NCBI GenBank assembly: GCA_021778845.1
Contig: JAJYBU010000002.1
Coordinates: forward strand, 62,001 to 126,000
Direction of reading: 5' to 3'
Length of the DNA stretch: 64,000 bases
From: Acidobacteriota bacterium
Lineage (GTDB): Bacteria; Acidobacteriota; Terriglobia; Terriglobales; Acidobacteriaceae
This document shows, piece by piece, positions 1-47,368 of the stretch. Position 1 is the first letter of the stretch. Every line of letters starts with the position of its first letter. A program made the translations under genes and the position numbers. Under the pieces are notes generated by a model. That model did no database searches, had not been told where the DNA came from, and worked only from the letters and a program-made list of their open reading frames with translations.

Positions 1-90
1 GAGGTCGGGTTTGGCGGCGGAGGCGGGGGAGACGATGGCGATGCGGCTTCCCTGCCTGAGTCTGGGGCGCGGTGTGACGAGTTCAGGCAA
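1..90 (-). CDS. LD-carboxypeptidase (S66 family), N-terminal fragment cut by window edge
   Basis: Only the first 30 codons lie inside the window. Read on the minus strand from a TTG at 90, they include the stretch RLRQGSRIAIVSPAS, which matches the usual opening of S66 peptidases (basic residue, G-D/S-x-I-A-I-V-S-P-A-S). Family members cut the terminal D-Ala from murein tetrapeptides during peptidoglycan recycling. The proposed TTG has a GAGG six bases upstream and overlaps the end of the dapF-like gene by 8 bp, so the two are probably co-transcribed. The catalytic Ser-Glu-His residues are outside the window, so the family call rests on this N-terminal motif alone. Confidence 0.55.
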   Translation of the reverse strand, partial: MPELVTPRPRLRQGSRIAIVSPASAAKPDL

Positions 91-895
91 AGTCTACCTC
101 GCCGGTGCAGATGATTTCGGCGGGGCCGGTGAGGAGCATCTCGCTGGAGTTCGCGGGCCAGACGACCTGCTGGGTCCCTCCCTGAGCGATGGCGGTGAGG
201 GAGCGGGCGGTGTTGTGGAGGAACATGGACGCGGCTGACGAAGCACAGGTGCCGGTGCCGCTGGAGGTGGTGGGACCGCAGCCGCGCTCGTAGATGCGGA
301 AGGCGATTTCGGTGGGCGAGAGGATGCGGACGAACTCGACGTTGGTGCCGTGGGGGAAGAGCGGGTCTACGGCGATGAGGGCGCCGAGTTGTTGCCACGT
401 GAGGCCGTGGGTGCTGAAGTCGGCGGAGTCTGGGAAGAGGACGAAGTGGGGGTTGCCGACGTTGACCATCGCACCGGAGATGGGGGAAAGCACACCGGGA
501 ATTTCGATGGTGCGGGGCATCACGCGGGGGACGCCCATGTTGCTTTCGATCCAGTAGTCGACGTCGTCGCGGCGGATGAGACGGCAGGTGCGGACGCCGC
601 CGTGGGTGGCGAGTGCGACTTCGTGAAGACCTTCGCTGGCGGCCAGCCAGGCGGCGACGCAACGGGTGCCGTTGCCGCTGAGTTCGGCTTCGGAGCCGTC
701 GGCATTGAAGAGGCGGAGGAAAAAGGAATTGTCGGGGCGGCGGTCTAGAAACTCGATGCCGTCGGCACCGATGCCGGTGTTGCGGCTGCAGAGTTTGCGG
801 GCGAGGGCGGCGTGGTTGCCGTGGGCAAGGCTCTCTTCGATGATCAGAAAGTCGTTGCCGCAGGCGTGCGCTTTGACGAAGCCGATGCGGCTCAT
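83..895 (-). CDS. dapF: DapF-fold protein (diaminopimelate epimerase-like) with both catalytic Cys replaced by Ser
   Basis: The protein has 270 residues, the normal DapF length, and shows the family landmarks in order: ACGNDFLII near residue 12, GIGADG near 41, NADGSEAE at 64-71, GNPHF near 147, GTNVEFV near 183 and ERG at 203-205. DapF interconverts LL- and meso-diaminopimelate for lysine and peptidoglycan synthesis, using two cysteines as acid and base. Here the first, normally in C-G-N-G, is Ser73 (LSGNGTRC), and the second, normally in A-C-G-T-G, is Ser212 (TTSSGTGTC). Substrate-binding residues look intact. The start ATG overlaps the mgtC stop (ATGA). It could be a degenerate, altered-function or unusually working epimerase; the fold assignment is firm, the activity is not. 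Confidence 0.85.
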   Translation of the reverse strand: MSRIGFVKAHACGNDFLIIEESLAHGNHAALARKLCSRNTGIGADGIEFLDRRPDNSFFLRLFNADGSEAELSGNGTRCVAAWLAASEGLHEVALATHGGVRTCRLIRRDDVDYWIESNMGVPRVMPRTIEIPGVLSPISGAMVNVGNPHFVLFPDSADFSTHGLTWQQLGALIAVDPLFPHGTNVEFVRILSPTEIAFRIYERGCGPTTSSGTGTCASSAASMFLHNTARSLTAIAQGGTQQVVWPANSSEMLLTGPAEIICTGEVDFA

Positions 896-1668
896 TCTTC
901 CTCCGAGTCTGGGAACATGATGACCTGATCGGCTTCGTCGCTGGCGCGCAACTGGTTGAGCAGGTGCTCGTGTTGTCGGGCTGTGGTCTTGAGGGTGAAG
1001 GAGACGCGCTCGATGCCGGCGACGTTGTCGCGGTCCTGCACGGTGAGGCGCTGGCCGGAGGCGTCGAGGACCTTGAGGATGGCGAGTTGCATGCGGTTGC
1101 GGGCGGCGGAGATGTCTGCGGCGAGAGCCTCGGCGCGGGCGGCACCAACGATGTTGTCGGGAAGCATGGAGCCAACGTCGGCACGGACTTCGTAGATCAT
1201 TGGATAGCGCTTCCAGCCGAGTCGGCTCTCGAAAGCGCCAATGAGTTGCAGCGCCACGAGGACGAGGAGGGTGGCGAGTGCGGCGACGATATACAGGCCC
1301 GCGCCGCAGGTCATGCCAATGGCCGCAACGACGAAGACGGTGGCGGCGCTGGTGAGGCCGAGGACACGATTTCTAGTGTGCAGGATGAGGCCCGCACCGA
1401 GAAAGCCGACGCCCTGCACGATGTTGGAGGCGACCTGGCCCTTGTTCGGGGAGTTATCGCCGGCGAGAACGACGCTCATGATGGTGAAGAGAGCCGAGCC
1501 CATACAGATGAGCATATTGGTGCGGAGGCCGGAATCCTTGTGCCGCCACTCGCGCTCAAGGCCGATGGCGCCGCCGAGGGCGCAGGCGGTGAGCAGACGC
1601 TCGATTGATGGCCGGGAGAGGACCAACTGCTCGAGTGCCGAAAAATGGATGCCGTTGGTGTCCACCAT
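892..1668 (-). CDS. MgtC/SapB family membrane protein
   Basis: This 258-residue protein has about five hydrophobic segments between residues 25 and 150, then a soluble C-terminal domain of about 100 residues, as in long MgtC-type proteins. Recognisable conserved stretches are GGAIGLEREW near residue 33, GLRTNMLICMGSALF near 47 and GVGFLGAGLI near 86. In Salmonella and Mycobacterium MgtC is needed for growth in low magnesium; its biochemical role elsewhere is unclear. The C-terminal part resembles the ACT-like tail of MgtC. Its stop overlaps the dapF-like start by 4 bp, so the two are translationally coupled. The functional link between them is not known. Confidence 0.85.
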   Translation of the reverse strand: MVDTNGIHFSALEQLVLSRPSIERLLTACALGGAIGLEREWRHKDSGLRTNMLICMGSALFTIMSVVLAGDNSPNKGQVASNIVQGVGFLGAGLILHTRNRVLGLTSAATVFVVAAIGMTCGAGLYIVAALATLLVLVALQLIGAFESRLGWKRYPMIYEVRADVGSMLPDNIVGAARAEALAADISAARNRMQLAILKVLDASGQRLTVQDRDNVAGIERVSFTLKTTARQHEHLLNQLRASDEADQVIMFPDSEEE

Positions 1669-46039: not shown

Positions 46040-47368
46040 TCAGTCGACGTTGACCACCGGCTCACCCTGCGTGCGCGATCCCAGTAAGCCATACAGGGCG
46101 ACGATGATATACGCCAGCAACACGACCGTGTATCCGCGGGCATAGCTGCCCGTTCGCTTGGCGATGAATCCGAGGAGGGGCGGGAAGATCGCGCCGCCCA
46201 CCACAGCCATCACAATTACCGAGCCGCCGAGCTTTGTATTCGGTCCGAGGCCCTTTACGCCCAGCGCGAAGATGGTCGGGAACATAATCGACATGAAGAA
46301 GCTCGTGGCGACGATCGCGCCAGCTCCCACTCTGCCCGGATGCACGATGCCCACGGCCACCAGCGCGATGTTGATCAACGCATAGGTCCCCATCATTCTC
46401 GCCGGAGAGAACCAGCGCATCAGGCCCGTCGACACGATGCGTCCCACCGCCAGCGCGACCAGATTACCCGTGAGAAACAGCGCCGCCGTGCGCTCCGTTA
46501 CGTTGGTGTATTGGAGCATATAGAAGATGAACGCGCTCCAGGTGCTGATCTGCGCGCCGCAGTAGCAGAACTGCGCCAGCACGGCCAGCCACAGATGTGG
46601 AAACTGAAATAGGTCGACGAACCGCCCCTTGTCGCCGCTGTCTTCGTGCTCGGACTCGATGTGGGGAAATTTCGTCAGTCCGATCCACAGCGCCCACAAC
46701 AGCACGACGCAGCCGAGCCCCACATAGGTAGGCACCACACGCATGATCTCCGAGTGCAGATATTTTGCCAGCGTTCCGCTTGCCCGCATGCTCGCCATCT
46801 TCGCCTGCGTCAGTGTCACGCCAGAGAAGATAAAAAAGGTGCCGATCAGCACGCCGGTAATCGTTCCCAGAGGATTGAACGACTGCGAAAAGTTCAGCCG
46901 GCGCTCGGATGTTGCCGCCGGGCCGAACTGCGCAATGAACGGATTGGAGGCTGTCTCGAGCGTTGCCGAGCCGCAGCCCACTACGAACAACGCGCACAGA
47001 AATGGTTCGTAGTGTCCCCAGATCGCGGCTGGCCAGAACATTAGCATGCCGCCTCCGAACAGACACAGCCCCGCGAGAATTCCGGCCTTGTAGCCCCAGC
47101 GACGCATGAAGACGGCTGCTGGCATCGCCATGCAGAAGTACCCCATGAAGACCGCCGTCTGCACCAGTTGCGCCTGCAGCGGCGAGAGCTCAAAGGATTT
47201 CCTGAACTGCTGCACCAGGATGTCCGTGAGATTGTTTGACATTCCCCAGAGAAAGAAGAGGACTGTCACCAGCACAAACGGCAGGAGATGCTGCTTCGGA
47301 AACACAGACGCTGGTGCATGATCCGACGGTGGCGCTGGGCGTTCCGTGTTGATGGGAGAAATCTGCAT
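46040..47368 (-). CDS. FucP-type sugar:proton symporter (MFS)
   Basis: The 442-residue protein has 12 predicted TM helices and the FucP-group signatures MSNNLTDILVQQF near residue 43 and GSATLETASNPFIAQFGP near 132. In E. coli FucP the acidic residues of these two segments (Asp46 and Glu135) drive proton-coupled L-fucose uptake, and both are conserved here. It likely imports L-fucose or a related hexose. It is followed on the same strand by rraA and preceded by a zinc dehydrogenase (28 bp apart), so the three probably form one operon read from 48413 downward. Confidence 0.87.
   Translation of the reverse strand: MQISPINTERPAPPSDHAPASVFPKQHLLPFVLVTVLFFLWGMSNNLTDILVQQFRKSFELSPLQAQLVQTAVFMGYFCMAMPAAVFMRRWGYKAGILAGLCLFGGGMLMFWPAAIWGHYEPFLCALFVVGCGSATLETASNPFIAQFGPAATSERRLNFSQSFNPLGTITGVLIGTFFIFSGVTLTQAKMASMRASGTLAKYLHSEIMRVVPTYVGLGCVVLLWALWIGLTKFPHIESEHEDSGDKGRFVDLFQFPHLWLAVLAQFCYCGAQISTWSAFIFYMLQYTNVTERTAALFLTGNLVALAVGRIVSTGLMRWFSPARMMGTYALINIALVAVGIVHPGRVGAGAIVATSFFMSIMFPTIFALGVKGLGPNTKLGGSVIVMAVVGGAIFPPLLGFIAKRTGSYARGYTVVLLAYIIVALYGLLGSRTQGEPVVNVD

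Follow-up and report, generated by a model that had tools for sequence, protein, structure and literature searches.

Serine at both catalytic cysteine positions in a DapF-family protein found across a large part of the Acidobacteriota

The closest described relatives of the protein studied here are the diaminopimelate (DAP) epimerases, DapF (TIGR00652), in which two catalytic Cys stand on opposite faces. The H. influenzae DapF mutants C73S (2q9h) and C217S (2q9j) share the fold and carry Ser at one site each, but they are laboratory-made and single-site, whereas the present protein has Ser at both sites naturally. The DapF-like fold is also common to HisR, CntK and O-ureidoserine racemase, which use Cys/Cys unlike our protein; identity to our protein is 15–16% for HisR and CntK and 26–27% for O-ureidoserine racemase. 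For HisR, use of both Cys is reported from mutants (PMC11602996). In the proline racemase superfamily, the Ser/Cys 4-hydroxyproline epimerases and the Ser/Thr enzyme t3HypD have a related two-domain fold (distant Foldseek matches), and an epimerase of this superfamily is reported to use a single Ser as acid/base on other substrates (PMC4113996). The catalytic Ser of that superfamily is described as being positioned by an Asn three residues further on; as a candidate motif for our protein this was rejected, position 76 being Gly. The exceptions to the Cys pair named in one review have one of the two residues changed (PMC8142540). A natural Ser/Ser DapF was not found described in the open-access literature on DapF, the cell wall, lysine synthesis and the proline racemase superfamily, a scope outside which most subscription papers lie.

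The gene encoding our protein lies at one end of a 64,000-nucleotide stretch of DNA from an Acidobacteriota bacterium, the whole of which is referred to as the window. The gene and its two Ser codons are as follows.

83–895, minus strand: dapF-family gene, Ser/Ser variant, 270 aa (TIGR00652, PF01678, AlphaFold2 model)
677–679, minus strand (read 679-677): codon AGC for Ser73, replacing the first catalytic Cys (SGNG), from alignment to solved DapFs
260–262, minus strand (read 262-260): codon AGC for Ser212, replacing the second catalytic Cys (SSGTG), from alignment to solved DapFs

The first-pass annotation had read AGC codons at both catalytic Cys positions, and this was confirmed by translation, which gave a frame free of internal stops, and by alignment, in which Ser73 and Ser212 fall on the catalytic Cys of solved DapFs. 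The protein scored 198 bits against the DapF equivalog profile TIGR00652 (cut-off 114.65), so the NCBIfam naming profile rates a Ser/Ser protein as an ordinary DapF. Pfam at E 0.001 returned PF01678 and no other family; neither the proline racemase superfamily (PF05544) nor PhzF (PF02567) matched at this threshold, and the score against the bifunctional DapF/glutamate racemase profile NF038284 was 72.1 bits where the cut-off is 350. The top sequence matches among solved structures are DapFs. The AlphaFold2 model (mean pLDDT 97.1) has aziDAP-bound Anabaena DapF (9mro) as its best PDB match with a TM score of 0.86, and the top 26 PDB rows consist of DapF structures, some of them with RppH, and O-ureidoserine racemase. 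With 9mro our protein shares 32% identity, the fold, a similar length, the DAP-contact residues and the motifs GNPH, TNVEF and ERG; it differs from DapF in the two Ser, and most Ser/Ser rows also have Ala for Lys/Arg82. In the model, Ser73 immediately precedes helix 74–88 and Ser212 helix 213–227, and the Cys of solved DapFs are described at the same spots before helices (PMC12039745). We conclude that the protein is a DapF-family member by sequence and fold that lacks one defining feature, and have filed it as a Ser/Ser variant rather than an ordinary DapF.

A sequencing error or local decay of the gene was considered as an explanation of the two Ser, but nothing was found in its favour. In a first search for relatives, Ser/Ser was found in 53 of 54 proteins, that of the window included, the remaining one being cut before site 73; four copies of the window's gene (L001, L002, L057, L058) were left out of these early counts. 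A class-wide search gave a DapF match in 199 of 249 relatives, all at least 89% complete, and the best 30 loci from these 199 genomes, when read, encoded Ser/Ser in all 30 cases; the two sets share some genomes. Within the genus, dN/dS was 0.16–0.39 in seven of nine comparisons, dS being saturated in the other two. As Ser/Ser is conserved in independent genomes, chance and sequencing error are excluded, and its presence as the only type in 138 of 187 typed genomes refutes error or decay, to which we leave practically no probability. The earlier view of the gene as intact thus held up in the absence of internal stops, in the dN/dS values and in the fixation of Ser/Ser among relatives.

Among 267 distinct typed homologues, sites 73 and 212 were Ser/Ser in 161, Cys/Cys in 98 and Cys/Ser in five; three more had Ser at site 212 and were cut at site 73. 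Residues other than Ser and Cys were not seen at either site in this set. Ser codons of both classes, TCN and AGY, occur at both sites, with at least nine class switches on the tree at site 73 and at least three at site 212. A switch between TCN and AGY takes two base changes, and the occurrence of both classes at both sites therefore makes it appear that Ser itself is under selection. This bears on the possibility that the protein binds DAP without any catalysis, having kept the pocket for a role as sensor or partner. Such a role would fit the loss of both catalytic Cys, since Cys-to-Ser mutants of a relative, the DapF-like histidine racemase, are reported to be greatly slowed (PMC11602996), and E. 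coli DapF is reported to regulate RppH through direct contact (PMC4227774). Drift would then be expected, yet only Ser and Cys occupy the two sites and both Ser codon classes are used; moreover, the Ser/Ser pair arose twice (see below). We consider a dead protein improbable.

We then looked at the distribution of the variant. A DapF match was found in 290 of 297 genomes sampled over the phylum. Loci from part of these genomes were typed, so that the counts cover fetched copies only: of 187 typed genomes, 138 had only Ser/Ser, 41 only Cys/Cys, four Cys/Ser and two a protein cut at site 73, while G343 and G375 carried both Ser/Ser and Cys/Cys types. Several genomes, mostly of family f34, show two or three DapF matches, the extra ones lying outside the typed set. 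Some f34 genomes, e.g., G343 (L214, L282), have a Ser/Ser DapF together with a divergent Cys/Cys DapF-like protein. In a scan of titled genome records, which is biased toward proteins resembling that of the window, at least 580 stretches encode a relative. The best 80 of these comprised 23 Ser/Ser, 55 Cys/Cys and one Cys/Ser protein and one cut at site 73. Among these 80, 17 of the Ser/Ser records are Acidobacteriota and six carry no phylum (five Aminicenantes MAGs and L092, titled “bacterium”), whereas all 55 Cys/Cys records belong to other phyla. What looked like one odd gene thus extends over much of the phylum. Other Acidobacteriota have a Cys/Cys DapF of the same family (e.g., L181), the sole type read in most of their typed genomes; many of these proteins read GVPH at the GNPH motif and carry one additional residue within ERGVEGET, and they form a separate part of the tree.

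The tree was built from 141 rows after exclusion of rows shorter than 200 aa and rows with at least 62% identity to a kept row, the two trait columns being removed; support is SH-aLRT only. In it, a single clade unites 79 Ser/Ser rows (SH-aLRT 95; 94 in a thinned set) and sits among Cys/Cys DapFs of other phyla, apart from the Cys/Cys proteins of other Acidobacteriota. L261, another Ser/Ser protein, was placed in the latter part of the tree, near Cys/Ser proteins. With the set thinned to 69 rows and some long branches removed, the AU test rejected a single Ser/Ser origin including L261 (p-AU 0.009); the L261 grouping had been named after the first tree was seen. The Ser/Ser pair has a second, separate origin in L261. 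L287, which is cut at site 73, lies outside the Ser/Ser clade on a long branch. The five Cys/Ser DapFs (L222, L248, L262, L268, L133) are spread over two or more separate regions of the tree. All five have Cys at the first site and Ser at the second, and as they retain the first Cys, the second catalytic Cys may have been lost first.

Residues in contact with DAP have been given for Anabaena DapF as N14, N64, N75, N148, N185, E203 and R204 (PMC12039745). In 168 aligned Ser/Ser rows, which include near-copies (161 are distinct), N14 was kept in 167, N64 in 168, N75 in 162, N148 in 167, N185 in 168, E203 in 168 and R204 in 167. The residues that bind the distal amino acid of DAP (N64, N148, N185, E203, R204) are thus each kept in at least 167 rows, and the window protein has them in its sequence; N148 is replaced in 34 of 98 Cys/Cys rows, unlike in the Ser/Ser rows. 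The retention of these contacts across the Ser/Ser rows makes DAP the probable substrate. Asp takes the place of Asn75 in six Ser/Ser rows, which come from five f34 genomes. His150, termed essential in DapF (PMC5885031), is replaced in 38 of the 168 rows (Gln 33, Asn 4, Phe 1). We also compared 79 Ser/Ser rows with 20 Cys/Cys rows of other phyla, listing 28 positions. Besides sites 73 and 212, the strongest difference was at position 82, which is Lys/Arg in 19 of 20 Cys/Cys rows; 73 of the 79 Ser/Ser rows have Ala there. Arg113 occurs in just 28 of the 79 Ser/Ser rows, and the search for a base that could act beside the two Ser yielded no new conserved charged residue among the 28 positions.

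The main rival to an epimerase reading is that the protein is a DapF-fold enzyme with another reaction, such as a racemase of another amino acid, a lyase or an enzyme acting on DAP-peptides in wall recycling, with meso-DAP being made by an unknown enzyme. A predicted DapF is reported to have proved to be a histidine racemase (PMC11602996), and in the related superfamily Ser/Thr instead of Cys/Cys accompanies a dehydratase; wall-recycling genes neighbour dapF in the window's family, and one family of the class points to a DapF-less route (see below). Against these points stand the retention of the distal-DAP residues and the finding of Ser/Ser alongside Cys/Cys in only two of 187 typed genomes. 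The new DapF-like activity envisaged in the first-pass annotation accordingly stays as a rival, but with the DAP contacts kept it is less likely than was first thought, and we rate it as unlikely.

The earlier note had suggested that the genome may rely on another dapF and had proposed to look for one, or for a meso-DAP dehydrogenase; neither was found in the genome. In the window genome (G000, 89% complete), PF01678 finds the window gene only, as two half-matches. Profile A1 adds two weak places in G000. One, on contig C8 (L330:1270-2262, plus strand), encodes a PF05544 protein of the proline racemase/hydroxyproline epimerase type whose motifs read CGHG and CGTG, and the other a PhzF protein (PF02567; L329:1135-2052, minus strand). 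Exactly one DapF match was present in 196 of the 199 DapF-bearing class genomes. The meso-DAP dehydrogenase Ddh was not found in G000 by profile search and was over the cut-off in none of the 249 class genomes, 53 of which gave weak matches below it. At 89% completeness G000 taken by itself may miss a gene, but the relatives gave the same picture. On the demand side, lysA was matched in 242 of 249 class genomes, over the cut-off in 228, and G000 has lysA. The DNPR motif, which we take to be the mark of a DAP-type MurE, was present in murE at all 30 loci read (32 genomes searched, that of the window included). LysA and Mpl act on meso-DAP or meso-DAP peptides. DapL was tried as a candidate with TIGR03540, with none of 34 genomes over the cut-off and an alanine transaminase (PRK08175) as the best match in G000; with TIGR03542, one of 249 genomes was over the cut-off. 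In genus g23 of family f9 (e.g., G057, G065), a DapF match, Ser/Ser where typed, occurs with a weak lysA match (E 3e-18 to 3e-31). From this weak match, the g23 DapF might be needed for the cell wall only.

The pattern is different in f7, a family of the same class. By counts made by hand from tables, DapF is absent in 44 of its 50 genomes and Ddh is over the cut-off in none, while 41 of the 44 have a lysA match. In 12 DapF-less f7 genomes, a search with a broader DapF profile gave no match below E 0.09, and murE carries DNPR in the two DapF-less genomes read (G055, G078). Since f7 lacks DapF and Ddh yet keeps lysA, this class probably has a way of making meso-DAP that does not involve DapF. 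PF19328, the 2,4-diaminopentanoate dehydrogenase family amine dehydrogenase, was found in 49 of 50 f7 genomes versus seven of 199 others, for example at these two loci.

L331:3471-4487, plus strand: PF19328 protein in f7 genome G078
L334:2916-3929, minus strand: PF19328 protein in f7 genome G121

The PF19328 protein may be an unrecognised meso-DAP-forming dehydrogenase and the route of f7; the association comes from one lineage, and the six DapF-keeping f7 genomes carry PF19328 too.

The coordinates of the genes next to dapF are as follows.

892–1668, minus strand: MgtC/SapB-family membrane protein, upstream of dapF (NF007431, 103.6 bits, below the cut-off of 214)
1–90, minus strand, leaving the window (L057:11173-12090): start of an LdcA-type muramoyltetrapeptide carboxypeptidase ORF (NF008424, 102.2 bits, below the cut-off of 378)
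L057:9734-11434, beyond the window: mpl, two genes downstream of dapF (TIGR01081, 411.1 bits, above the cut-off of 388.7)

The mgtC ORF shares four bases with the start of dapF, and the LdcA-type ORF begins at position 90, within the tail of dapF. Both the coupling to mgtC and the LD-carboxypeptidase following dapF had been noted before. We surveyed the neighbours of dapF at 228 loci, of which 140 are Ser/Ser, 83 Cys/Cys, three Cys/Ser and two cut; at many of them the flanks reach 1.5 kb only, and 40 flankless loci (L211-L250) were excluded from the counts. Same-strand homologues of mgtC, ldcA and mpl were seen near dapF in 37, 34 and 45 loci, respectively. All of these loci encode Ser/Ser or cut proteins and most belong to the window's own family; in another Ser/Ser group, a Do-family protease gene adjoins dapF (17 loci, representative L188). 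As the neighbours are mostly confined to this family and differ elsewhere in the clade, genome context speaks for a function in the cell wall for the window's family but not for the clade as a whole. Elsewhere in the window, positions 46040-47368 (minus strand) encode an L-fucose:H+ symporter (TIGR00885, 355 bits, cut-off 280.4).

If the protein is an epimerase, DAP would bind as in other DapFs and the pocket would close and shut out water; a closed pocket excluding water has been described for DapF (PMC12039745). Placed at the N-end of one helix each, Ser73 and Ser212 would use their hydroxyls in place of the thiol/thiolate pair, one Ser removing the alpha-proton and the other supplying a proton to the opposite face. 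In other DapFs, helix N-ends and backbone amides may stabilise the thiolate (PMC12039745). In the Ser/Ser protein they could stabilise a partial Ser alkoxide instead. A Ser alkoxide is a stronger base than a thiolate, so the cost would lie in forming it. For a two-base epimerase with one Ser, the Ser/Cys 4-hydroxyproline epimerase of the proline racemase superfamily is a precedent (PMC4113996); no precedent for a Ser/Ser pair was found in the open-access literature. Several reports run counter to such chemistry. Besides the reduced turnover of the histidine racemase mutants mentioned above (PMC11602996), Cys-to-Ser mutants of DapF are reported to serve to hinder catalysis (PMC12039745), Cys-to-Ala mutants of C. 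glutamicum DapF are reported to lose almost all activity (PMC5296763), and the Ser/Thr member of the proline racemase superfamily, t3HypD, is described as a dehydratase. Another possibility is a poor epimerase whose slow turnover suffices in slow growers; the Ser pair would then cost some rate, which is tolerated, and might bring resistance to oxidation. In C. glutamicum DapF, the two Cys are reported to form an inactivating disulfide (PMC5296763), which is impossible for a Ser pair. Ser is conserved, however, and not variable, and we regard this explanation as very improbable.

Taken together, we think it probable that the window protein is the diaminopimelate epimerase of this bacterium and makes meso-DAP from LL-DAP, as needed for lysine and peptidoglycan, without catalytic thiols. 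The family, the predicted fold, the DAP-contact residues, the Ser kept at both sites over much of the phylum, the finding of a sole DapF and no Ddh, and the presence of lysA, a DNPR murE and mpl support this reading. Against it stand the absence of DapF in most f7 genomes, the replacement of His150 in 38 of 168 rows, the presence of both types in G343 and G375, and the lack of an LL-DAP source in the searches with TIGR03540 and TIGR03542. On balance, and slightly less firmly, we also favour the wider proposal that much of the Acidobacteriota makes meso-DAP by a cofactor-independent Ser/Ser epimerase that evolved at least twice, perhaps via Cys/Ser intermediates.

The Ser/Ser pair suggests either that the reaction can run without thiols or that these bacteria make meso-DAP by another route. 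Should the protein turn out not to be an epimerase, no known last step to meso-DAP would be apparent in 138 of 187 typed genomes, an equally noteworthy result. If it is one, there would be a natural, thiol-free form of a reaction for which a thiol/thiolate pair is considered necessary, and this form could not undergo the disulfide formation reported for C. glutamicum DapF (PMC5296763). Such an epimerase would mean that this chemistry can run on hydroxyls, and would allow the conversion of a weak acid into a strong base within a closed site to be tested directly.
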